Positions 1,009 through 19,004 of a DNA stretch of 20,167 nucleotides are shown piece after piece; positions within the stretch are counted from its first letter, which is position 1; each line of letters starts with the position of its first letter. Source of the stretch: a virus. Made by a program: the position numbers and the translations under genes. Under the pieces are notes generated by a model. The model saw only the letters and a list, made by a program, of their open reading frames with translations, did not search any database and was not told where the DNA came from. Location of the stretch: positions 1 through 20,167 of IMG/VR virus record IMGVR_UViG_3300037585_000447; one strand, given 5' to 3'.

Positions 1009-1796
1009 TGTGGTTTCGTTGCTCCCTGTGCCATAAATCCTTCTGAACCTAACTCGTCTAGTCCTATTCTTGATAGTGCATCTTGGTATGAATCCTTGAA
1101 CTCCTCTGCCATAGCATCTAAAAATTCATACATATCTCTTATTGTTACCTTTGAACTACTATTAATCTTTTCTTGAATTAGTACCAAGTAGGATCTTGTT
1201 CTTGTTTCTGCAAGTTGTGGGTGTATTCCTAACTGCTCCCAATATTCTACAACTGCCTTTGACACTCTGCCACCTGCTGACAAGTCCTGTATAGCCAATC
1301 TGAATGATGATCTTACCATGTTTGCAATTTCCTGTTTCTCAAAGTCTTTCTCGTTCCAATCATCAGGTATGTTGTTATTCTTTTTGATACTATCATACAT
1401 ATCTTGGAACATTCCAATTTCCCTAAGTGCTGTATTCATTGATATTGTAATTGATTCAATCTGTGACTCATATTCCTGTACCACTAACCTTGAATGAGCA
1501 TCTGTTTGTTTTCTTAGTTTTTCTATTGTAAGTTTTTTCTTTTCAATATTGTAGTATGCTTCCTGAAGTGCCTTGTACTTTTTATCTATCTGTGCAAGAC
1601 ATTGTTTCATTCTGCTTAATGGGGAGTCACTAATCATCTGCATTGTTTGTAAAGAGTAACTGCTTTGTGATGTGGAATGTCCAATAAGTGAACTTCCTCT
1701 CTTGTACTCTGGAAGTCTTTCTGTAATCTTTGCGATTTGTTTTTCATCTAAGGTAGCCAAATCAGTTACCTTGTTGAATAATTCTATATTAGTCAA
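1005..1796 (-). CDS. Helical coiled-coil protein of unknown function in the fibre module
   Basis: A 263-residue protein that starts at TTG (1796) inside the stop codon of the preceding gene (TTGA overlap), with a strong GGGGGAG ribosome-binding site 10 nt upstream that supports this start. I do not recognise a named family. Unlike its beta-rich, glycine/threonine-rich neighbours it is charged and probably mostly helical: residues about 60-130 (KKYKALQEAYYNIEKKKL onward) look like a coiled coil, and residues about 150-250 look like a globular helical domain. There is no signal peptide or membrane segment. The end (GSEGFMAQGATKPQ) is flexible. Its place between two fibre genes and its translational coupling to both suggest a virion-assembly or fibre-assembly role (chaperone, connector or minor structural protein), but this is context only. 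It reads as an intact gene with ordinary length and no frameshift. Confidence 0.85.
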   Translation of the reverse strand: MTNIELFNKVTDLATLDEKQIAKITERLPEYKRGSSLIGHSTSQSSYSLQTMQMISDSPLSRMKQCLAQIDKKYKALQEAYYNIEKKKLTIEKLRKQTDAHSRLVVQEYESQIESITISMNTALREIGMFQDMYDSIKKNNNIPDDWNEKDFEKQEIANMVRSSFRLAIQDLSAGGRVSKAVVEYWEQLGIHPQLAETRTRSYLVLIQEKINSSSKVTIRDMYEFLDAMAEEFKDSYQDALSRIGLDELGSEGFMAQGATKPQ

Positions 1797-3274
1797 AATC
1801 TTGATGCTCCCCCTAAATGATTTGTAGCTGCTGATAAATCTCCAAAGTCCGTTGCGTTTCCTGTGGTTGCAATAGTGATATAATCCATAACGTTTGAATA
1901 ATTACTACCTCCACTAGCAGTAGCACCACCACCAATAACACCTCTAGTATCTGATTCTACTCCAGCAGGTGCGTGTCTACCAACTGTTAAATCCCCAAAG
2001 TCAGTAGCGTTGCCTGTTGTTGCAATAGTGATATATTGTATTACATTAGTATTACCAGAACCCGAATTTGGATCTCCACCAGCAAATACTCCTCTAGTTC
2101 CATTTGATACGTCAGCAGGATATCGTAAATTCGATAACAAGTCACCAAAGTCAGTTGCATTACCTGCTGTGGATATAGTGATATAATCCATGACATTACT
2201 TGTATCTCCACCTGCAAATACTCCACGAGTATCAGATGATACTCCTGCTAAATCTTGTCTAGTTACTGTCAAATCTCCAAAGTCCGTTGCATTACTTGGT
2301 GTTGCGATTGTAATGTATTCCATGACATTACTTCCATTTCCACCACCAAAGACTCCTCTAGTTCCAGATGATACTCCTGCTACAGCGTGTCTAGCTACTG
2401 TCAAGTTTCCGAAATCTGTTGCATTACTTGGTGTTGCGAATGTGATATAGTCCATAACATCTGAATTAGCTCCTGTATGACCACCACCAAATATACCTCT
2501 TGTTATTGACGATACTGCTTCTACATAAGTTCTAGCAACTGTCAAATCTCCAAAGTCCGTTGCGTTTGACGGTGTGGCTATTGTGATATAATCCATAGCG
2601 TTTTGATAAGTACTTGCATAACCACCCCCAAATACACCTCGACCACCTGCATAGGGTGCAGTTCCAAGTTCAAACCAAACTTCTGAATGATATGCATTAG
2701 CATCAAATTTGTAGTAAATTTTTCTTGTATCCGTAATTTCTGCTCTGCTTCCTTCTTGGGCGTTTGCTACAAATGGTATTGCTGCTGCTGGTGTTATGTC
2801 AGAACCTAATACTGAGAGGTTTGAACCTGTGTCAAACCCATTTCCTGAATCTGTTACAGTTGTTTGTGTGATTTGTGCTGATGTATTAGCCCATTTGGAA
2901 ACACCTCTTACTCTTAAAGGAGCTGTTCCTGCACCTGTTGCATTTGTATAAACTGTATCATAAACACTTAATTTTTCCTCTCCTGAAATATTTACCATAT
3001 TCAAAAATGTTAAAGTTTGAACATCTCCTGTTCCTGCTGTTAATACATTTATGTTTGAAGTTCCACTTTGTCTTACACTATCTCCACCACCATTTACATC
3101 AAATCTTTCAGCATAATTAGATCCTGTATCTCCATTAAATCTCATTAAAGAGTTGCCTGTATGTCCATTCTGTGAGAATATTATATCTATTAATTTAGAT
3201 GTTGAAACAGTTCCAGTATCAAATGATTGATCATCTGCTGATACCGTATTTGAATAAATTTTACCCCAAACCAT
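1793..3274 (-). CDS. Tail fibre protein with six kelch-like repeats
   Basis: A 493-residue protein whose ATG overlaps the previous stop by one base (TAATG). Residues about 3-157 form a beta-rich domain also found twice in the upstream gene (RFNGDTGSNYAERF and GTAPLRVRGVSKWANTS are its hallmarks). Residues about 160-209 are a linker (ITDTRKIYYKFDANAY). Residues 210-493 hold six tandem repeats of 44-50 residues, each with (T/G)RGVFGGG, then MDYITIAT, then NATDFGDLTVAR. Such GG-containing repeats of about 45 residues fit blades of a kelch-type beta-propeller, and six is a usual blade number. Similar repeats occur in fibre-like proteins of marine phages. The likely role is binding a surface ligand on the host. 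There is no signal peptide. The propeller fold and the ligand are inferences. Confidence 0.85.
   Translation of the reverse strand: MVWGKIYSNTVSADDQSFDTGTVSTSKLIDIIFSQNGHTGNSLMRFNGDTGSNYAERFDVNGGGDSVRQSGTSNINVLTAGTGDVQTLTFLNMVNISGEEKLSVYDTVYTNATGAGTAPLRVRGVSKWANTSAQITQTTVTDSGNGFDTGSNLSVLGSDITPAAAIPFVANAQEGSRAEITDTRKIYYKFDANAYHSEVWFELGTAPYAGGRGVFGGGYASTYQNAMDYITIATPSNATDFGDLTVARTYVEAVSSITRGIFGGGHTGANSDVMDYITFATPSNATDFGNLTVARHAVAGVSSGTRGVFGGGNGSNVMEYITIATPSNATDFGDLTVTRQDLAGVSSDTRGVFAGGDTSNVMDYITISTAGNATDFGDLLSNLRYPADVSNGTRGVFAGGDPNSGSGNTNVIQYITIATTGNATDFGDLTVGRHAPAGVESDTRGVIGGGATASGGSNYSNVMDYITIATTGNATDFGDLSAATNHLGGASRF
1796..2647 (-). repeat. Six tandem 132-150 bp repeats encoding kelch-like blades
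   Basis: The six units begin at protein residues 210, 258, 305, 349, 393 and 443 of the fibre gene, giving spacings of 48, 47, 44, 44 and 50 residues. The core (ITIAT..NATDFGDL) is nearly identical in all units, while the stretch after FGGG varies in length and sequence. Repeat 4 is the most divergent (DLLSNLRYPADV in place of DLTVAR). At DNA level the repeats are similar enough for recombination to add or remove blades. Confidence 0.85.
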
Positions 3275-6012: not shown

Positions 6013-7428
6013 CTATATACTAAATCTTTTTATTATACCATTATGACCAGCACTACCAGCAGTTCCATTAGTACCATTAGCACCACCATTTGCAACGTTT
6101 CCACTACCACCACTCGTTCCACCACCAGCACTACCAGCAGTACCAGTTCCACCACTTCCACCAGCTACAGTTAATGAACTGCCTGATACTTCTGTTAATG
6201 TATCATAAAGAAATATAATAGATCCACCATTTCCACCTGAACCTCCACCTGAACCTCCACCACCTCCACCTCCACCACCGTTTCCACTTCCAGAACTACC
6301 AGCACTTGAAGTTCCAGTAGCATTAGTTCCATTATTACCATTTGAATTTATAACTGCTGTAGATGCAATAGTAATTGAAGGTGCTATTAATACAACATAT
6401 CCTCCACCATTTCCACCTGAACCTGCATTACCTGCTCCATTACCACCAGCACCTCCAGTACCATCTCCACCACTTCCACCAGCACCACCACAACCTCCTC
6501 CACCACCACCAGCACCATATAATGCTGGGGTAGTTAAAAATGTAAGAAATATTTGATAAGTTTTACTAATGAAAGGATTACCAGCAACTACACCACCACC
6601 AGCACTACTAGCACCACCACTTTTTGCTGGATTACTATTCCCATGACCACCATAACCACCATTTCCACCAGCACCTCCTTGTTTTCCTGTAAACACGTAA
6701 GCAGATTCAGCTTTTTCAGTAACTGCTTCTCCACCACTTTGTGCTGGATTACCATTATTAGATCCATTATTTTGACCACCTCCAGTACCACCTGTAGTAG
6801 ATCCAGCAATGCCAAGAGTACCCTTACCAGCAGTAGTTATTGTACCATTAATTGTTATTGATTCATTGGCAAATATAGTAATACCTCTTTCAGATGCAGT
6901 TAGTGTTTGACCAGCATTTAATGTAAATGTTGTATAGAATTTTGCAGTTTCATCTATAGTTGTACTACTTGATACAGTTCTTGCACCATCTGAACCATCT
7001 CCCCATATTCTTATACGACCATTGTATCTTTGAACATTTGTTTGTATGTCTACTGCTGTAACACCACTACCGTTTGTAGTAGCTGTACCTATTAACAAAG
7101 AATCTGTAGGGGTTGTACCTGTTAAATTTGATGTAAAACTCCATGATTCTGCCTGACTATTAGAATCTCTTGCTAAAGTTATATAAATATAATTTACATC
7201 ATTTGCAGTAAGACTACCTTTTGAAGATGATGAATCATTATGAACAAATAGACCTTTTAATCTTGCCTTTCCTACTGCTATATTTACTGATAAACCTGTT
7301 CCTGCTGTAAGTGTGAATCCACTTACTAAATAATCATTGACAACATCATAAAACATATCTGTAAAATCACTAGGCTCGATAGTTTTTACACTTATACTAT
7401 CACTACGAGGAATAAGTATTTTTGTCAT
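6013..7428 (-). CDS. Large polyglycine tail fibre / adhesin
   Basis: A 471-residue protein whose ATG follows directly on the TAG of the upstream gene (no spacer). Residues 1-145 look like a baseplate- or fibre-attaching domain (MTKILIPRSDSISVKTIEPS, VNDYLVSGFTLTAGTGLSV, AVGKARLKGLFVHND). This resembles N-terminal domains of fibres that describe a quantity in a GLSVNIAVGKA-type strand. Residues about 150-200 are beta-rich (TTIDETAKFYTTFTL, ITINGTITTAGKG, reminiscent of solenoid turns). From about 205 to 462 the protein is polyglycine with runs up to 10 Gly, broken by short hydrophobic strands (GGGYVVLIAPSITI, GGSIIFLYDTLTEV). The end is GHNGIIKRFSI. Phage adhesins of this composition (for example S16 gp38) use packed polyglycine type II helices for receptor binding; the analogy is an inference here. 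Confidence 0.85.
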   Translation of the reverse strand: MTKILIPRSDSISVKTIEPSDFTDMFYDVVNDYLVSGFTLTAGTGLSVNIAVGKARLKGLFVHNDSSSSKGSLTANDVNYIYITLARDSNSQAESWSFTSNLTGTTPTDSLLIGTATTNGSGVTAVDIQTNVQRYNGRIRIWGDGSDGARTVSSSTTIDETAKFYTTFTLNAGQTLTASERGITIFANESITINGTITTAGKGTLGIAGSTTGGTGGGQNNGSNNGNPAQSGGEAVTEKAESAYVFTGKQGGAGGNGGYGGHGNSNPAKSGGASSAGGGVVAGNPFISKTYQIFLTFLTTPALYGAGGGGGGCGGAGGSGGDGTGGAGGNGAGNAGSGGNGGGYVVLIAPSITIASTAVINSNGNNGTNATGTSSAGSSGSGNGGGGGGGGGSGGGSGGNGGSIIFLYDTLTEVSGSSLTVAGGSGGTGTAGSAGGGTSGGSGNVANGGANGTNGTAGSAGHNGIIKRFSI

Positions 7429-7890
7429 CTAAAGACTCAACTGCCATTCAACGATTGCTCTTTTTGCTGATGTTTTAACAAATGGAGAAGAATCAATTTG
7501 TCTAGCAATTAAAACATCATTATTGTCTTTTAAACCTAACTCATTCCATGTATAATTACCTTCTGTATATCCGAAATCTACAGATAAATATAATGTTGTG
7601 GTAAGAAGTATTCTGTCAGCAGCAGTTATTGCTTTCCAATACTTATTACTTGATGCCTGTAAGTCAGTTTGTCCAGCAGCAGCAGCAGTTGTAGAATCAC
7701 CTACTCCTATACTGTTAGCATATCCACCACCTGTAATATTACCAATATATTTTAAAATTGTTTGTTTTCCAGCAGTTACAATAAGATTTTTAATGGTTTT
7801 ATTATAAACTTCTTTTTCAGTACCATCTGGTTGTTTTTCCCATGCCCTTACTCTTACATGACCATTAAGAGGAACTAACACATCAGCCAC
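7429..7890 (-). CDS. Small baseplate/tail-tip structural protein
   Basis: A 153-residue protein read from GTG at 7890, overlapping the hub gene stop by 8 nt; GGGAG about 10 nt upstream supports it. No ATG lies nearby. The first strand (VLVPLNGHVRVRAWEKQPDG) is followed by KNLIVTAGKQTILKYIG, ANSIGVGDSTTAAAAGQTDL and NYTWNELGLKDNNDVLIARQ, a common motif order of small tail proteins that sit between baseplate and fibres; the last strand is AIVEWQLSL. The position between hub and first long fibre fits a fibre-attachment or baseplate-wedge role. It shares this motif order with the protein at 5410-5958. No enzyme motif is visible. Confidence 0.75.
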   Translation of the reverse strand: MADVLVPLNGHVRVRAWEKQPDGTEKEVYNKTIKNLIVTAGKQTILKYIGNITGGGYANSIGVGDSTTAAAAGQTDLQASSNKYWKAITAADRILLTTTLYLSVDFGYTEGNYTWNELGLKDNNDVLIARQIDSSPFVKTSAKRAIVEWQLSL

Positions 7891-9892
7891 TTACATACAC
7901 ACTCCCTGACTGATTATTGGATGGATATTGAGATCCGTATGTTCCACTACCATAGTTATTGTCATTTTTATCTATTATAGAAGTGGAGTCGGGCATATTT
8001 AAGGTTTCTGTGAATTCTTCATGCACAAGTTGTACTACAATATCTCCAATTACAAGAGTTTCTTCTGGTGACTCATATTCCCTTATATCTTTACTTGTAG
8101 TCATGGCATCCTCTAAATCATGTATTTTTTGAGTTATTTGTTGGTCAATTTCTAAGAAATCAAAACTATATTCACCCACATTAATTTCAGTAATATATTC
8201 TGGGTATTTCCATGTTATACCTTTAATTGCAAAATCACTATCTATATTTTTAATAGTATTTGTTACATGTACAATATCATTTTCTGCTATTGAAACAAAT
8301 AATGTTGGTATTTGTATTTTTACATTTAATCTTATATCCTTATATCTGTTAAGATATGACTGTACAAATCTAATACCGTCAAATCTAGTTTTTATCCAAG
8401 GCATAATTAATTTTTTAGCATGAACACCATGTTCTGTTATACTATCCTCTCTTGTACCTCTTATATACAAAGGTTTTTCAAATTCATAATCAATCACTAC
8501 TGAACCACTAGGAGCAGTTGTAAACGTTACCGTTTTTCCAATACTGTCTATTTCATAGTCTTCTTCGGGTTCTTTTTCTGTTCCACCAACAGTAACTCTG
8601 GTACTTACAGCAGAATGTTCTAAATTAAAAACAGTCAAAGATCCGTTACCAGTAAAAGTCTCTATGGTATGATACCTAATATTTTCACCCAATACAATTA
8701 AATCATTGACTATTTCAGTATCATCATATGCTGATTTTAACAATTTACAGTTTGTTCCGTGTGTAAATATAAAATCTATATCAGTATGTTTTTCAGGTTC
8801 TAATACAAATTCTTTGTTACCATTTGTATAAAATATATGACCAGTTAATGCTGTAAAGTCTCTAAGAATATCTATTAACTTTCCAACAGCAATATATTTT
8901 TTTAATATCATTCCTACCAAATCTCCTTTTCTAATAAATGTTAAGGTAGTATTATTTGTAATTAGATTTTCAATAATTGCTTCTGGAGACTGATTATTAA
9001 ATTCTTCTCCTCGTATTTCTTGTTCTGCTAATTCTTTACCGAAACTGAAACATTTAACTTTCTGATGTACTGTTTCTTTAGAAACTTTTGTAACCCTACC
9101 ACCAAATTTTGTTACAGTTCGTGGGTTTCTATTATCATATACTTTTTCTCCATGTGCTGTAGAGACTGGAGTTCCTTTGTATAGTCTAACTGAATCCATT
9201 GACCCTGTAAAATATGTTGATGCTTCATCTCTACCAACTCTTAATTTTCCAGTTGTTGTCAAGTTATGAGATATTGTAGCAGTACCCTTTGATACCTTGT
9301 CCACATATAATGTTACCAAGTTTGATGAATCTCTGGTAACTCTTATCAAGTGATTTTCACCGTCATTAAATCCAGCAGATGATGACACTAATGTTGTACC
9401 GTTAAGTTCCAATGCTATATCGCCAGCAGTTGTATGATTTACACTTATTCCCAATCCGTTACTTGATGTTGTTCTTTTAGTGATTAAATATTGTTTATTT
9501 GTTGATGTCCATTTAACCCATATAAATGTTTCAAATTCTCCACTAAAATTAAGGTTAGTTTTATCATCAACTTCAAAATATGTAGAAGTACCATTTAATG
9601 ATAATGCCTTACCCTGCCATTGTCCGTCAATATATGTTAGACCTGCCGATGCAGTAGGTGTATTTAAATTACCACTTTCATCTATTACTGTTTCATTAAA
9701 ATTATATACAGCAGATAAATTAGTGACTGGAATCATATCATGTATTATTATAATTTTATCATTAGTGTTAACGTCTACAGTTGGTGGTACTGTTATATCA
9801 GCTTCATCTATAGCCCTATCTCCTTCTTTTATAATTTTAGTTTGTGAAAATGATTTCTTTACATCATTTATGAATACTGCTACGTTAACCAT
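7883..9892 (-). CDS. Baseplate hub / tail-associated protein with inserted LamG-like domain
   Basis: A 669-residue protein. ATG at 9892 is preferred over an upstream GTG (9934): it overlaps the previous stop by 8 nt, as at other junctions here, and gives a typical hub start (MVNVAVFINDVKKSFSQTKI). The hub sequence TVDVNTNDKIIIIHD (about 38-52) is interrupted by a concanavalin/LamG-like segment, about residues 56-258 (YNFNETVIDESGN, GKALSLNGTSTYFEV, NHLIRVTRDSSNLVTLYVD, SMDSVRLYKGTP), and resumes at KFGGRVTKVSKETVHQKVKC. Residues 330-400 continue the hub (VGKLIDILRDFTALTGHIFY). A second short insertion lies at about 414-474 (GNGSLTVFNL, VTVGGTEKEPEEDYEI, KTVTFTTAPSGSVVIDYEF). The tail (about 580-669) is a helix plus Asn/Gly/Ser-rich end. 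Role: closes the tail tip, carries fibres; the LamG-like part may bind glycans. Domain identities are from motif recognition. Confidence 0.85.
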   Translation of the reverse strand: MVNVAVFINDVKKSFSQTKIIKEGDRAIDEADITVPPTVDVNTNDKIIIIHDMIPVTNLSAVYNFNETVIDESGNLNTPTASAGLTYIDGQWQGKALSLNGTSTYFEVDDKTNLNFSGEFETFIWVKWTSTNKQYLITKRTTSSNGLGISVNHTTAGDIALELNGTTLVSSSAGFNDGENHLIRVTRDSSNLVTLYVDKVSKGTATISHNLTTTGKLRVGRDEASTYFTGSMDSVRLYKGTPVSTAHGEKVYDNRNPRTVTKFGGRVTKVSKETVHQKVKCFSFGKELAEQEIRGEEFNNQSPEAIIENLITNNTTLTFIRKGDLVGMILKKYIAVGKLIDILRDFTALTGHIFYTNGNKEFVLEPEKHTDIDFIFTHGTNCKLLKSAYDDTEIVNDLIVLGENIRYHTIETFTGNGSLTVFNLEHSAVSTRVTVGGTEKEPEEDYEIDSIGKTVTFTTAPSGSVVIDYEFEKPLYIRGTREDSITEHGVHAKKLIMPWIKTRFDGIRFVQSYLNRYKDIRLNVKIQIPTLFVSIAENDIVHVTNTIKNIDSDFAIKGITWKYPEYITEINVGEYSFDFLEIDQQITQKIHDLEDAMTTSKDIREYESPEETLVIGDIVVQLVHEEFTETLNMPDSTSIIDKNDNNYGSGTYGSQYPSNNQSGSVYVSG

Positions 9893-10373
9893 TGTTAGTC
9901 TCAATATTATCGTCAGTAGCCAACATAGAAGCACATGAGAATTGAATATTTGCTGTCCATGTTACAGGAGTATCTCCACCTTTACTGACAGAAATACTAC
10001 TTACTACACCAGTTCTTGTAAAAAACACAGTAGAGTTATCTGATTTTAACAATTTAATTTCAAAAGCATTTTCAATAGAAATTGGTTGAAAATCATTTAT
10101 TAAAAATGCCATCTGATCATCAGCAGTTAATATTGAACTGCCACCTGTCAATTCATCTACAACCGTAGTAGTTTGATCTACCAATGTCCATGATAAGTTT
10201 ATTGTTGATAAATTACCTTCAACCTTCATTCCTATTGCATCAGTATCAGCAGATTCGGGAATTGAATATACCATTACTGGACAATCTAACTTAGCATCAA
10301 TTTGATCAAAGTTTCTTATACGCAAAGTTCTTGTTGGAGTAGGTGAAGTTCTTTTAAGTATTATATCTGACAT
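9885..10373 (-). CDS. Distal tail (Dit-like) protein, putative
   Basis: A 162-residue protein whose ATG lies one base after the stop of the tape measure (TAA-A-ATG); an AAGGGGT sequence lies upstream. It begins MSDIILKRTSPTPTRTLRIR and is rich in beta strands (STINLSWTLVDQTTTVV, NAFEIKLLKSDNSTVFFTRT, VSSISVSKGGDTPVTWTANI, QFSCASML). Placement directly between tape measure and hub is where siphoviruses encode the distal tail protein that forms the ring joining tube and hub. The sequence itself did not let me identify the family firmly, so the name rests mainly on synteny. The 3' end overlaps the hub gene by 8 nt, indicating translational coupling. Confidence 0.7.
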   Translation of the reverse strand: MSDIILKRTSPTPTRTLRIRNFDQIDAKLDCPVMVYSIPESADTDAIGMKVEGNLSTINLSWTLVDQTTTVVDELTGGSSILTADDQMAFLINDFQPISIENAFEIKLLKSDNSTVFFTRTGVVSSISVSKGGDTPVTWTANIQFSCASMLATDDNIETNNG

Positions 10374-10374
10374 T

Positions 10375-12366
10375 TTAGATCATACCCCTTCTACTGTTTG
10401 CTTCAAGAATCCATCTTTGAATTGTTGGTTTCAACTGTTCAAAGTCAGCATTTTTGTCTATTTTTGCTATATTAATATTTATTACTGGAACTCCTGATGA
10501 TTTGTTTCCATGAGGTGATATATTAACATGTTCTGCACCTGCTTCACCAGCCATAAACATTGTAGGTGAATTAACCATACCACTAAATCCATTGGCTGCT
10601 GTTCTTGAATACCAAGAAGCAGCAGAACCACTTACATCAAATGATGGAATTTGAGATACACTCATTGCTATTTTTGCATTTCTTGTTGGTTTTTTATTTC
10701 CATCTTTTGTTGTGTATGTGAATTTTGATATTCTTTTTAATGCGTTATTTATCCATTTAGCAGCACCGTCAAATATTTTTGCAGTTCCTTCCATAGCGTT
10801 AGCAGAAACATCAGCATGATCTTCTGATTTTTCTGAATGTCCGAATATTTTTTTCCACCATTCTTCTATACCTTTTGAAGCATCAGCTATTGCATTAGTA
10901 GTTTTTTCAGATTTTTTCATATCTTCTTCAGAAGATGTTACACCTAACCATTCTAAAATTGGAGTCAACCATCCAGTTAATCCTTCTTTTAATGAATTAA
11001 ATCCTTCACTAACCCATGTCCAGAATCCTTTAAACATATCTGGTAACAACCATAAGAATATAGTATTAATTGTACCAATAAACATTAAGAATGGTCTCAA
11101 TATCATTTTACCTATATTTTGCAAACTGTCCCATACTCCACTAAAAGCATCAGGAATTGTAACAGTAAAGAAATCATGTACACCAATAGCAAATTCCTCT
11201 ATGGGTGTATATATTGAAGCCCATGCTTTTTCCAAACTTTTATTTACTCCTTCCCAATATTCTTTATGTTCCTCGTCTTTTTCTTCTTGGGTTTTACCAT
11301 CATCGAAAGGATTTTTAGGTATTAACTTTTCAAAAGCAGTTATTACCATTGGAATTATGCCACCCATAGCTGCAAGAAGATACTTAGCTGGATCTGTAAA
11401 GAAATCCATTATGAACTTACCTACCTGATCACCAAGTTTCATGGCAGTTTTCATCCATCCTTTGAACTGTGGTGCTATGGTTTTGATAAGTCCAATCATT
11501 ATAGGTCTTAATATTGCTCCAAAGAACGTACCTATTGGCATTAAGATCATTGTAACTGCAAATTTGAATAACTTCATCATAGCCTGAAACATTGGAGCTA
11601 CACTCAATGCTTTGATAATTGTAGATAAAATAAGACCACCAGCACCTACACCTAATGCTATACCCGTAGCGTGTTTCTTTGCAAACTTACCCATAGCTCC
11701 CAATGATTTTCCAAATTTATTTTTAGCAGAAGGTTCTTGCATATCTGCAACTGCTTTTTCACCACCCAATGCATTTACATTTGATGTTCTTGCTCTTTCT
11801 AGAGCTCCTAATTTTTTTTCACCAGAAGGATCTAGATTTTGAGCTTTCAACTGTTCTATTTCTGCTGTTTGTCTTATGACTTCATCTAATAATTCAAATT
11901 GTTTTGATAACCTATATACTGAACCACCCATTTTTTCAAAAATAGTTCCAACAGTTACACCACCTGTTAAAGCCTTTGTAAAGAAATCCATTTGTGCTCC
12001 AGCCTTTGCCTGTATATTTCTCATTTTGATGTTAGTTTGCACATCCTGTTGGTGCTCTCTTTGTTTTTCTATACTGTTTGCCTGTTGTACTGCCCTGTTC
12101 TTTCTTATAGTTTCTGTATGTTTATCTAACCAAGCATGATTGTCTTTCATTCTTCGAGCAGTTTCTTCTAATCTCTGATTTTTTGATTTTTCTATTGTTA
12201 ATGTTTTACCCCATTGATCAGCAGTTTTAGCCATTCCTTGAATAGCTTTTAAATTTGATTCATTTAATTTAATTCCAGATTTTCTAAGATCTCTAAGAAT
12301 TGCTGTAATACGGTTAATTTCTTTTCTTAGAAGTTCCTCGTCACTACTCTGCTCATTTATAGCCAT
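10375..12366 (-). CDS. Tail tape measure protein
   Basis: A 663-residue protein. Residues 1-125 are charged and probably coiled coil (ELLRKEINRITAILRDLRKS); about 126-215 continue helical. Residues about 233-300 are strongly hydrophobic (IALGVGAGGLILSTII, VTMILMPIGTFFGAILRPIM), with further hydrophobic stretches near 328-345 and 421-442. The C-terminal motif NSPTMFMAGEAGAEHVNISP (599-618) is the PT-F-GE-G-E-V type found at the end of many tape measure proteins. Tape length sets tail length, about 1.5 angstrom per residue in well studied phages, so a tail of about 100 nm is expected at most. No peptidase motif is visible. The hydrophobic region could help membrane passage, an inference. A TATA-like CTTAATATA is centred 27 nt before the ATG; GGAGG lies 12 nt before it. 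Confidence 0.92.
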   Translation of the reverse strand: MAINEQSSDEELLRKEINRITAILRDLRKSGIKLNESNLKAIQGMAKTADQWGKTLTIEKSKNQRLEETARRMKDNHAWLDKHTETIRKNRAVQQANSIEKQREHQQDVQTNIKMRNIQAKAGAQMDFFTKALTGGVTVGTIFEKMGGSVYRLSKQFELLDEVIRQTAEIEQLKAQNLDPSGEKKLGALERARTSNVNALGGEKAVADMQEPSAKNKFGKSLGAMGKFAKKHATGIALGVGAGGLILSTIIKALSVAPMFQAMMKLFKFAVTMILMPIGTFFGAILRPIMIGLIKTIAPQFKGWMKTAMKLGDQVGKFIMDFFTDPAKYLLAAMGGIIPMVITAFEKLIPKNPFDDGKTQEEKDEEHKEYWEGVNKSLEKAWASIYTPIEEFAIGVHDFFTVTIPDAFSGVWDSLQNIGKMILRPFLMFIGTINTIFLWLLPDMFKGFWTWVSEGFNSLKEGLTGWLTPILEWLGVTSSEEDMKKSEKTTNAIADASKGIEEWWKKIFGHSEKSEDHADVSANAMEGTAKIFDGAAKWINNALKRISKFTYTTKDGNKKPTRNAKIAMSVSQIPSFDVSGSAASWYSRTAANGFSGMVNSPTMFMAGEAGAEHVNISPHGNKSSGVPVININIAKIDKNADFEQLKPTIQRWILEANSRRGMI

Positions 12367-12387: not shown

Positions 12388-12914
12388 TTATATTAAGTTT
12401 TTTGCCATTCTATTAGTGGATCTATTACTAGGAATGGAGTTCTGTCTTTGAGCTTCTTCCATCTGTTCTTTATGCATAGCAAATAATTTTTTAAGATATT
12501 CTATTGGCTGCTTGTCGACTTCTTCCTTTGACCAGCCAAATTGGCTGGCACAGGCGTAGTAGATTCCGTAGGTGAATCTATCTCCTCCTCGAAGCTTTGG
12601 AATGTCGCCATCCAATCCTCTATATATGTCGCTAAAGGGTGTACCTTAGTTATCTCCTTTAACATATGTTTAACTACTTTGGCATCTAACATTTTGATTG
12701 TAGTTATGTCTCCGACTTTGAATGGAGCCTTTTTAATTGTTAATACTAGTAGATTCATTCTGTAATTTGATAGATCAATTTTAGGTTTAGTTACATCACT
12801 AAGGTCAACTGATCCACTAATTAATGCTTCAGTCTCACCAAATGTCAAAGAATCCTCAAACTCAACAGTTTGTTCTTGACCGTTATATGTGATTGTAATA
12901 GGTATTAATACCAT
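12388..12914 (-). CDS. Tail assembly chaperone, long form (gpGT-like) made by -1 frameshift
   Basis: The -1 frame is open from just after a TAA at 12646-12648 down to the stop at 12388, but has no convincing start of its own. Translating the first frame to the slippery C CCT TTA (12639-12633), then slipping back one base, joins residues 1-94 to 81 further residues (SDIYRGLDGDIPKLRGGDRF and onward), giving 175 residues. The extension has ACASQFGWSKEEVDKQPIEY and a C-terminal helical part (KLFAMHKEQMEEAQRQNS), in keeping with T domains, which bind the tail tube or tape measure while the G domain coats the tape. Position between tail tube and tape measure is the standard one. Frameshifting of this gene pair is a conserved feature of long-tailed phages (established for lambda); its use here is inferred from sequence. 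Confidence 0.85.
12389..12397 (-). promoter_or_regulatory. TATA-like box before the tape measure gene
   Basis: Minus strand CTTAATATA, centred at 12393, 27 nt upstream of the tape measure ATG at 12366 and overlapping the stop codon of the chaperone extension. Spacing equals that of the better boxes further upstream. The sequence departs from CTTTATATA at one or two bases, so it is a weaker candidate. A GGAGG motif lies between box and gene and would be absent from a strictly leaderless mRNA, but would serve read-through transcripts. Confidence 0.5.
12501..12914 (-). CDS. Tail assembly chaperone, short form (gpG-like)
   Basis: A 137-residue protein with ATG at 12914 and TAG at 12501. It starts MVLIPITITYNGQEQTVEFE, then a helical core (LTFGETEALISG, NYRMNLLVLTIKKAPFKVGD, DAKVVKHMLKEITKVHPL), and a polar tail after residue 95 (DSPTESTTPVPANLAGQRKK). 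The helical core before the slippery site would be shared with the long form, and the polar tail is unique to the short form. Tail assembly chaperones prevent premature tube polymerisation and deliver the tape measure; they are not in the mature virion. A TATA box CTTTATTAA is centred 27 nt before the ATG. Naming is by gene order plus the overlapping frame architecture, which is strong evidence. Confidence 0.88.
   Translation of the reverse strand: MVLIPITITYNGQEQTVEFEDSLTFGETEALISGSVDLSDVTKPKIDLSNYRMNLLVLTIKKAPFKVGDITTIKMLDAKVVKHMLKEITKVHPLATYIEDWMATFQSFEEEIDSPTESTTPVPANLAGQRKKSTSSQ
12597..12660 (-). promoter_or_regulatory. -1 programmed ribosomal frameshift signal
   Basis: Three elements in order on the mRNA. 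AAAGGAG, a Shine-Dalgarno-like site at 12660-12654, ends 14 nt before the slippery heptamer. C CCT TTA at 12639-12633 matches X XXY YYZ exactly and lies in the zero frame (codons 93-94). A hairpin TTGGATG-GCGA-CATTCCAA at 12615-12597 starts 17 nt after it; it has 7 pairs with one bulged U and a GNRA-type GCGA loop. Internal Shine-Dalgarno-like sites are known to stimulate -1 slipping in bacteria (dnaX). The hairpin spacing is longer than usual, so its role is less sure. Confidence 0.8.
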
Positions 12915-12947: not shown

Positions 12948-13943
12948 TTAGGCAGTTGTGTCTACTGATACTTTTGCTGCTTTAGCTTGCCAGTTAATTT
13001 CTTCAAATACAGGCTCTACTGGTTCAAGACCACTTACACCGTGATCTGCGAATGATACATCGTCTAATTCAATCTTAATTGATTTGTTTGCTGCTACGTT
13101 TTTAAAGTGTAATTCAATACCTACACCACTTGCAACTAATTCTTTTTGTGTTCTTACTTGGTCAATTACATATTGGATTAGGCTTTGGTCTTTGAATGCT
13201 GTTTTAAATCTTCCAGTGACATCAAGTACTTTTCTGTAAACGTCTACTGCTGCATTTGAGTTTAATCCGTAAAGTAATTCTGTGTTTTGTGCAAATGACA
13301 CATCTGCTTCCTGAACTTCTGCTACTGTTTGTAGTGATGATCCGTTTGATACTTTGAATGAACCGTGAGCAAATGTATAAGGTTCACCACCTTGATCAAG
13401 TGTTCCTGCACTCTGTTCTGTAATAGTACCAGATGTTCCTACAGCAGTACTTGTTTCTTTACCAAATGTCATATCAATACTACCGTTCATTGGTTCGCCT
13501 ATGCTTGTAGAAATGCTTAATGTATTTACTACACATCCATTTAATACTCTGGTTAATTTTGCGTTTGCACCAGTTTGTAATTCAATTTGTGTGGTAATTG
13601 ATTGTGTTGTTGGTGAAGTAGCTCCTTGTGCTAATGTTGCTGGATATAAGAACGGATCGTTTCCACTTGGTGATCCGTAAATTGATTGAAATATTTTATG
13701 TGAATGTGAGTCGTCGAATACAAATCCAACACTTAGGCTTCCTTGTTGTTGACCGTAAGCGAATTTTGTTGGTTCTACTTGACCTAATTTAGCTAAATTA
13801 ATTCTATTGTTGGTTAATGATAAACCAGTAACTTTGGTATTAAGACCAAATGTATTTGTTAATGAACTTGCTGTTGTTCCATATGAACCTGCTGTTTCAT
13901 AACCATATCTTACAGAACTACTAGCACCAGTATATACTACCAT
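12948..13943 (-). CDS. Major tail tube protein
   Basis: A 331-residue protein with ATG at 13943. The sequence is beta-rich and ends with conserved-looking tube-protein features. Residues about 1-100 hold KVTGLSLTNNRINLAKLGQV and FAYGQQQGSLSVGFVFDD; residues about 130-200 have GCVVNTLSISTSIGEPMNGS and IDMTFGKE, a pattern typical of tail tube proteins in which an inner barrel strand precedes an insertion; the C-terminal part (LYGLNSNAAVDVYRKVLDV, then GIELHFKNVAANKSIKIELD) is a second beta unit. Length is within the range for siphovirus tube proteins with an added domain. It sits just before the chaperone pair and after the tail terminator, as expected. It would stack as hexameric rings to make the tail tube. 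It has its own TATA box, in keeping with high demand. Confidence 0.85.
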   Translation of the reverse strand: MVVYTGASSSVRYGYETAGSYGTTASSLTNTFGLNTKVTGLSLTNNRINLAKLGQVEPTKFAYGQQQGSLSVGFVFDDSHSHKIFQSIYGSPSGNDPFLYPATLAQGATSPTTQSITTQIELQTGANAKLTRVLNGCVVNTLSISTSIGEPMNGSIDMTFGKETSTAVGTSGTITEQSAGTLDQGGEPYTFAHGSFKVSNGSSLQTVAEVQEADVSFAQNTELLYGLNSNAAVDVYRKVLDVTGRFKTAFKDQSLIQYVIDQVRTQKELVASGVGIELHFKNVAANKSIKIELDDVSFADHGVSGLEPVEPVFEEINWQAKAAKVSVDTTA

Positions 13944-17786: not shown

Positions 17787-19004
17787 CTAGAGTTTAATGT
17801 CTCTAATTTTACCTTGTGATTTGAAATGGCGACAAACTGTCTCACCCATTGTTCTGAACACACCTTTCTCAACGAAAGCGTTGTTCACGAATGGATAACC
17901 AGCAGATCTTCTAGTTGCTTCGTAATACTCGGTTGGTATAGCCACTTGAATTCCAATTCTTGGATAACCATAACCTTCTGCATCAGAAGTATCTAATGCA
18001 AAGAGTCTTCCAATTTCAGAACCACCACCAGATGGGGCATCCTTTGTTGGAATGAATGGTACTCCGTAAATAGAGTCGACATGAATACCAGTACCCGTAC
18101 CTTTAAAGGTTTGAATACCGTTTACGTCTATCTGGACTAATTGCTCACCGTATGGGTTTGCAATACGGACACTTGGCATGTATAAGCCTTGTATCTCAGA
18201 GTAGACTTCATGGGAGCCTAGGAATACATTTGGATCTTTACCTGCTGCGATTCTAATCTTTCGTAAGAAAGTTCTTAGAACATCGTCAGTCAATACACCG
18301 TCAGTACCGATAGTACCAGAAGCAGATTCTACTGTACAGTCAAATTCTCCACCGTTTCCATCTCTGTCAACGGTAGCATCAGCAGCCCAAGGATCGTAAA
18401 ATCCAGAGTGGCTTCCACCTAGTGCATCTTCTTCAGCATCACTTGATACGATTCTATCAAGGGATTCTAAGTCTTTTGTACCAGTATGAGCACCACTTGA
18501 TGCTGCTGCATCGCTTTCAACATCTGCTAAAAGCATTCTATTAATGAACTCTTTGTGTTGTACTGCCATATACAATCTGAGTGAGCCTAAGCCTCCCCAG
18601 ATGTCGTCTTTACTGTGTGTTGACAACCATTCCATTACCTCTGATGCAGAGAAAGGGAGTTGTGCAGTTTTTGGCTTTACGTCAAGTTCTGCAACGGTTG
18701 GTTTCACGGTTTCAGCAATTAAACCACCTTCTGAAGTACCACCTAATGCTGTGTTAGCATTGTTGGTATTCAAGGTTGGTTTTGCAGTTATAACCCTCCA
18801 TCCAGATTTGTCCCAAGGGTATTTTGGGAGAATTCCGAATGCGTTTGCTTCAAGATTCAGTTGAGCCCATGCATAAGCACCAAAGATGGCGTTAAACATA
18901 CCAGCAGTACTGGTTGTTGAAGGGGCATCAGCTTTTCTAAGAAGGTTACGATTGTGTCCATAATATTGTGCCTCAAGCTCATCGATTGTTCTGATTTGAG
19001 TCAT
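17787..19004 (-). CDS. Major capsid protein (HK97-fold type)
   Basis: A 405-residue protein whose ATG at 19004 is one base after the stop of the preceding gene (TAA-A-ATG). Residues 34-60 (AGMFNAIFGAYAWAQLNLEA) form the N-arm helix region, 92-125 (SEGGLIAETVKPTVAELDVK, then PFSASEVMEWLS) the E-loop/spine area with the strand-turn-strand typical of HK97-fold proteins; a spine helix follows (LYMAVQHKEFINRMLLADVE, 144-163). The A-domain side is in the last third: VLRTFLRKIRIAAGKDPNVF (242-261), IYGVPFIPTKDA (312-323), GYPRIGIQVAIPTEY (346-360). The end is basic (CRHFKSQGKIRDIKL). Length and motif order fit archaeal and bacterial tailed viruses; position after a scaffold-like gene and before connector genes agrees. 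The fold is inferred from motif order. The gene lacks a clear own TATA box and has a weak AGGA upstream, so it depends on the upstream transcript. Confidence 0.88.
   Translation of the reverse strand: MTQIRTIDELEAQYYGHNRNLLRKADAPSTTSTAGMFNAIFGAYAWAQLNLEANAFGILPKYPWDKSGWRVITAKPTLNTNNANTALGGTSEGGLIAETVKPTVAELDVKPKTAQLPFSASEVMEWLSTHSKDDIWGGLGSLRLYMAVQHKEFINRMLLADVESDAAASSGAHTGTKDLESLDRIVSSDAEEDALGGSHSGFYDPWAADATVDRDGNGGEFDCTVESASGTIGTDGVLTDDVLRTFLRKIRIAAGKDPNVFLGSHEVYSEIQGLYMPSVRIANPYGEQLVQIDVNGIQTFKGTGTGIHVDSIYGVPFIPTKDAPSGGGSEIGRLFALDTSDAEGYGYPRIGIQVAIPTEYYEATRRSAGYPFVNNAFVEKGVFRTMGETVCRHFKSQGKIRDIKL

Follow-up and report, generated by a model that had tools for sequence, protein, structure and literature searches.

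Gene organization of the tail region

The DNA analyzed here, referred to as the window, is a 20,167-base IMG/VR virus record; its genes and all features described below lie on the minus strand. An ORF at 12501..12914, with homologues at at least 44 loci, encodes a predicted tail assembly chaperone of 137 aa (the 0-frame product, a gpG analogue), for which an AlphaFold model is described below. Its upstream neighbor at 12948..13943 encodes a tail tube protein (Pfam Phage_tube_2, E 3.6e-18; PHROG 290). The downstream neighbor at 10375..12366 encodes a putative tape-measure protein of 663 aa, named for its position, length and hydrophobic stretches; this ORF had no family match in Pfam or PHROGs. 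The order of tail tube, chaperone and long ORF recurs in the related contig L175, the tape measure being identified by position and length only.

Within the chaperone gene, codons 93-94 contain the slippery heptamer C CCT TTA (12633..12639), read as CAC CCT TTA in the 0 frame. A second ORF in the -1 frame (12388..12645, stop codon at 12388-12390) would contribute an extension of 81 residues, a gpT analogue hereafter called the T domain. The predicted GT fusion (12388..12914) thus follows the 0 frame from 12914 to 12633 and then the -1 frame, giving 94+81 = 175 aa. As read from the sequence, a TAA of the -1 frame at 12646..12648 bounds the shift window upstream, so that the -1 frame opens 6 nt ahead of the heptamer in the window and up to 69 nt ahead of it in relatives. 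A first-pass annotation made from the window sequence had placed the in-frame heptamer and the TAA at these positions, which direct reading confirmed, and its figures for the 175-residue fusion and the 81-residue extension are all correct.

The GT fusion would end ∼20 nt ahead of the ATG of the next gene (12366), which is preceded by AGGAGG. Unlike this downstream gene, the chaperone ATG (12914) has no Shine-Dalgarno sequence, and the chaperone gene may be leaderless or use another mode of initiation. Scans of the window and twelve related stretches detected no tRNA genes. Elsewhere in the window, the product of 1793-3274 contains numerous TRGVFGGG...NVMDYITIATPSNATDFGDLTVAR-type repeats and is perhaps a propeller-like tail or fiber protein. 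The product of 6013-7428 has a very glycine-rich C-terminal half with GGxGG repeats and is probably a tail fiber or adhesin, and the large tail-region protein of 7883-9934 contains a Laminin G domain (Pfam E 8.7e-6).

The heptamer is invariant in three clades

Of the 5,896 codon pairs in the ORFs of the window, 23 hold an in-frame heptamer of the form X XXY YYZ, and about 0.17 would be expected in the 44-codon overlap; the window sequence alone is therefore suggestive but weak evidence. We collected relatives from viral contigs, searching with protein sequences and profiles, and sorted them into four clades, A (which includes the window), B, C and D. Because the search patterns fell outside the heptamer, these loci were not chosen for its presence.

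Clades A, B and C supplied 66 distinct sequences, window included, and C CCT TTA is present in all of them; L173 and L177 raise this number to 68, and the most distant carriers share only ∼29% identity with the protein of the window. The codon ahead of the heptamer always ends in C (CAC in 32, TAC in 30 and TTC in 4 of the 66); in the rest of the chaperone gene, codons for His, Tyr and Phe mostly end in T. Synonymous changes were counted across 32 sequences with a tree length of 5.7 substitutions per site. The 33 conserved codons among codons 1-85 show a mean of 5.06 synonymous changes and a minimum of 1, compared with none at codons 92, 93 and 94. Codons 86-88, which contain the Shine-Dalgarno-like AAGGAG discussed below, are likewise devoid of synonymous change, and the intervening codons 89 and 90 have 4 and 8. 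Within clade B, the slip codons show no synonymous change vs. a mean of 4.04. Since the relatives share ancestry, the 68 sequences do not amount to 68 independent events; the tree is nonetheless long. We consider the conservation of the heptamer across distinct relatives decisive for the question of chance. The alignment of homologues, which the first-pass annotation had proposed as a check, thereby lends strong support to -1 frameshifting at exactly C CCT TTA. All 19 clade B sequences inspected (L090-L103, L153-L170) also carry GGG directly after the heptamer.

Codon freezing could in principle stem from two overlapping frames that each need fixed amino acids, with no slippage of ribosomes. 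Pro-Leu in the 0 frame and Pro-Phe in the -1 frame are indeed invariant in the main clades, and the overlap also reduces synonymous change further downstream. However, the -1 frame of the window has no start ahead of Pro-Phe, and a TAA lies two codons upstream. Moreover, the heptamer ends in A in every case, even though the -1 residue that this base opens can be Ser, Asn, Ile or Arg.

The -1 frame as a protein-coding sequence

All relatives have a conserved T domain. Of 32 relatives, 31 have predicted fusions of 168 to 175 aa and one, L077, has a fusion of 198 aa; the 0-frame product varies between 112 and 140 aa across relatives. We determined the substitution profile by codon position in 101 close pairs. 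Upstream of the overlap, the value at third positions of the 0 frame is 0.383 vs. 0.155 and 0.101 at the other two. Within the overlap, the maximum moves to third positions of the -1 frame (0.226 vs. 0.104 and 0.168, the latter being 0-frame third positions), where it stays past the 0-frame stop codon (0.421 vs. 0.218 and 0.309). Judged by this profile, the -1 frame is under selection at the protein level.

The first-pass annotation had stated that the extension has no convincing start of its own, and the relatives bear this out: none of ATG, GTG and TTG is conserved as a start codon in their -1 ORFs. In the window, the only candidate near the beginning of this ORF is TTG at 12613-12615, and the next ATGs follow at least 162 nt past the heptamer. 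In several relatives the first ATG, GTG or TTG of the -1 ORF comes 117 nt or more beyond the heptamer; in L067 the whole -1 ORF is free of all three. These observations bear on the alternative that no fusion protein is formed and the T domain is made separately from an internal start, which in the window would be the TTG at 12613-12615. The window and many relatives do have a TTG (GTG in L028) 24 nt past the first base of the heptamer, but the codon is CTG in L010, L018-L021, L025 and others, and TTG or CTG at this place is a by-product of an invariant Trp codon in the 0 frame. We rejected initiation at this TTG, as the start is not conserved among relatives. Internal initiation, which L067 could not employ, would also leave unexplained the freezing of the heptamer and the T TTT TTA of clade D described below, and we regard it as extremely unlikely.

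A different predicted slip site in clade D

Clade D, a sister clade, comprises 11 distinct sequences, of which L180 aligns to the protein of the window with 40% identity and no gaps. At the old site these sequences read CCG TTG, CCA CTA, CCC TTA or CCT CTA, and CAA TTA in one case, and codons 92-94 have undergone 3, 4 and 4 synonymous changes. Three codons downstream, all 11 share an identical AAT TTT TTA and with it a perfect heptamer, T TTT TTA. This is exactly the point at which the -1 frame opens in L180 and L192, right behind a TAA, and in clade D the conserved T domain (RGLDDEL...KFGWTK) is found downstream of this heptamer. As judged from these alignments, the codons are frozen where the slip site lies and drift elsewhere. 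Homologues without any slippery site, which the first-pass annotation had named as evidence against a frameshift, were thus not encountered: only clade D lacks C CCT TTA, and it carries T TTT TTA instead. The free drift of the old site alongside another heptamer also argues against mere overlap constraint, to which we give next to no chance as an explanation of the frozen codons.

Slippage of RNA polymerase instead of the ribosome could in principle yield the same fusion protein. Known cases require long runs of A or T; CCCTTTA contains no run longer than three, and only the TTTTTTA of clade D, with six T, could be considered. A change of frame during transcription is therefore, in our estimate, most improbable, and programmed ribosomal frameshifting is the reading that we pursue below.

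Candidate stimulatory elements

A Shine-Dalgarno-like AAAGGAG lies 14 nt upstream of the heptamer (12654..12660), in the region of codons 86-88, where no synonymous change was seen; it is a probable stimulator. Among the 46 sequences of clades A and C, 45 have a stretch ∼14 nt upstream that can pair with the anti-Shine-Dalgarno sequence at the 3' end of 16S rRNA, in the shifting forms AAGGAG, GAGGTG and AAGGAGGT; in clade B such pairing is strong in only 3 of 20 sequences. The element is thus clade-specific, being kept in A and C and mostly missing from B. Of the three clades that carry C CCT TTA, two therefore support the earlier suggestion that AAAGGAG acts as a stimulator, the element being conserved there, where it may promote slippage; most of clade B does not.

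The hairpin with a GNRA-type GCGA loop that had been put forward as a second stimulator can be drawn at ∼12597..12615, with a spacing of 17 nt to the heptamer. It shows no covariation, and one of its five pairs is broken in 6 of 20 sequences, so that we did not retain it as a conserved stimulator. No conserved structure downstream of the heptamer found support, the consensus fold being weak. Another hairpin, in which TAAAGG pairs with CCTTTA of the heptamer, is seen in the core clade; we rejected it as the main element because divergent members lose it but keep the Shine-Dalgarno complementarity. The arrangement resembles Shine-Dalgarno-stimulated frameshifting of the dnaX type, where the complement to the anti-Shine-Dalgarno sequence lies ∼10-14 nt upstream (14 nt here), but differs from it in that a downstream stem-loop stimulator is unsupported.

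Predicted fold of the short product

Neither frame of the chaperone gene matched Pfam or PHROGs, and no sequence similarity to known chaperones was found. The AlphaFold model of the 137-aa product has a mean pLDDT of 76.8. In a viral structure library, tail assembly chaperones are among the best matches to this model (E down to 3.8e-5), with chaperones of haloarchaeal viruses ranking lower. A Foldseek search of the PDB with the same model returned nothing significant, and a second PDB comparison gave YqbN (3klu, Z 8.0) and the HK97 tail assembly chaperone (2ob9, Z 5.0). These structural matches, moderate in strength, support a tail assembly chaperone fold for the short product. The structure model of the T domain is of low confidence.

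The virus and its probable host

Matches to the capsid protein of the window are confined to archaeal viruses. In related contigs, portal and RadA are nearest to haloarchaeal viruses, RadA also matching staphylococcal phages at a lower score. These relatives support an archaeal host, in agreement with the archaeal-type virus proposed in the first-pass annotation. The related contigs encode RadA, MCM, an AAA_5 ATPase and a VWA protein, and this RadA/ATPase set resembles, when compared by description, the radA, ATPase and cobS genes reported for marthaviruses of marine group I Nitrososphaerota (PMC7678222). The host is probably a marine member of the Nitrososphaerota. Profile scans of genome contigs with chaperone and RadA detected no relatives in host genomes, and a search of the related contigs for AmoC gave no match, nor did its control.

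Two further observations concern these viruses. The capsid proteins of the window (17787-19004) and related contigs are 97-100% identical, whereas chaperones of the same viruses share only ∼66-77%, which suggests module exchange or very uneven rates. Three related contigs encode secreted matrixin-like metalloproteases (L080:12811-13599, L085:8792-9646, L086:12870-13682), of which only that of L086 exceeds the cut-off of Pfam M10.

Discussion

The locus very probably belongs to an archaeal tailed virus that uses programmed -1 ribosomal frameshifting to express its tail assembly chaperone gene. This reading draws on comparative sequence evidence, namely a heptamer frozen at the nucleotide level, a -1 frame under selection, start codons that are not conserved, the gene order and the different site in a sister clade. 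We infer from it that slippage occurs, and the rate, tRNA steps, stimulator effect and roles of both proteins would be as follows. Most ribosomes would stay in the 0 frame and synthesize the short chaperone of 137 aa. In a minority, tRNA-Pro on CCU and tRNA-Leu on UUA would slip one base back onto CCC and UUU, and these ribosomes would continue in the -1 frame to yield the 175-residue fusion, whose C-terminal T domain probably draws tail tube protein onto a tape measure coated with chaperone. In the clade of the window, pairing of the upstream AAGGAG with 16S rRNA probably slows or tensions the ribosome and would thereby increase slippage.

Like the lambda G/GT-type frameshift of tail assembly chaperones (reviewed in PMC5009743), the gene occupies the slot between the tail tube gene and a putative tape-measure gene, has a conserved, start-less second ORF in the -1 frame and a conserved slippery heptamer at the frame junction, and encodes a short product with a chaperone-like predicted fold. 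In systems of the lambda type, the fusion is produced at a low ratio, binds both tape measure and tail tube, and does not occur in virions. The lambda G-GT logic invoked at first pass is supported by gene order, predicted fold and selection on the -1 frame. In contrast to lambda, the slip site is C CCU UUA (U UUU UUA in clade D), the virus is probably archaeal, and some clades carry a conserved internal Shine-Dalgarno-like element. Among haloarchaeal tailed viruses, a -1 shift has been predicted in the same gene of HCTV-1, -2, -5 and HVTV-1 (PMC5009743) and of Hardycor1 (PMC7911831), and HCTV-1 further shares related capsid, portal and RadA proteins and has an annotated joined chaperone; these viruses differ in their heptamers, their chaperone sequence and their high-G+C hosts. 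The sole experimentally proven archaeal -1 frameshift listed in a 2021 review, that of the Saccharolobus solfataricus alpha-L-fucosidase (PMC8211752), is likewise performed by an archaeal ribosome, but its gene is cellular, its slip site is A-rich and it does not control an assembly ratio. The same C CCU UUA was proposed, and disputed, for -1 frameshifting in giardiavirus (PMC8230311), which differs in its eukaryotic host, a downstream pseudoknot and the lack of conservation among strains. In the searchable literature, which leaves aside subscription papers on marine archaeal viruses, we found no earlier report on this chaperone family.

Although this type of -1 frameshift is already known from lambda and predicted in haloarchaeal viruses, the comparative evidence gathered here is unusually strong. 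According to the 2021 review, the case for archaeal -1 frameshifting otherwise comes from a single gene tested by experiment and from a few predictions in viruses (PMC8211752). Gene callers will overlook the T domain in these viruses. More tentatively, and with less than even confidence, we suggest that ribosomes of marine Nitrososphaerota have their own -1 frameshift system, which would favor an all-pyrimidine heptamer ending in UUA, use pairing with 16S rRNA as its main stimulator and dispense with downstream RNA structure. Viruses could, in this reading, replace C CCU UUA by U UUU UUA within a span of four codons and still make the fusion. With nearly 80 distinct natural variants in which the slip site is frozen, with clade D and its differently placed site serving as an internal control, and with some clades having the Shine-Dalgarno-like element and others lacking it, the family makes the choice of slip site and 16S rRNA-stimulated frameshifting in archaea directly testable.
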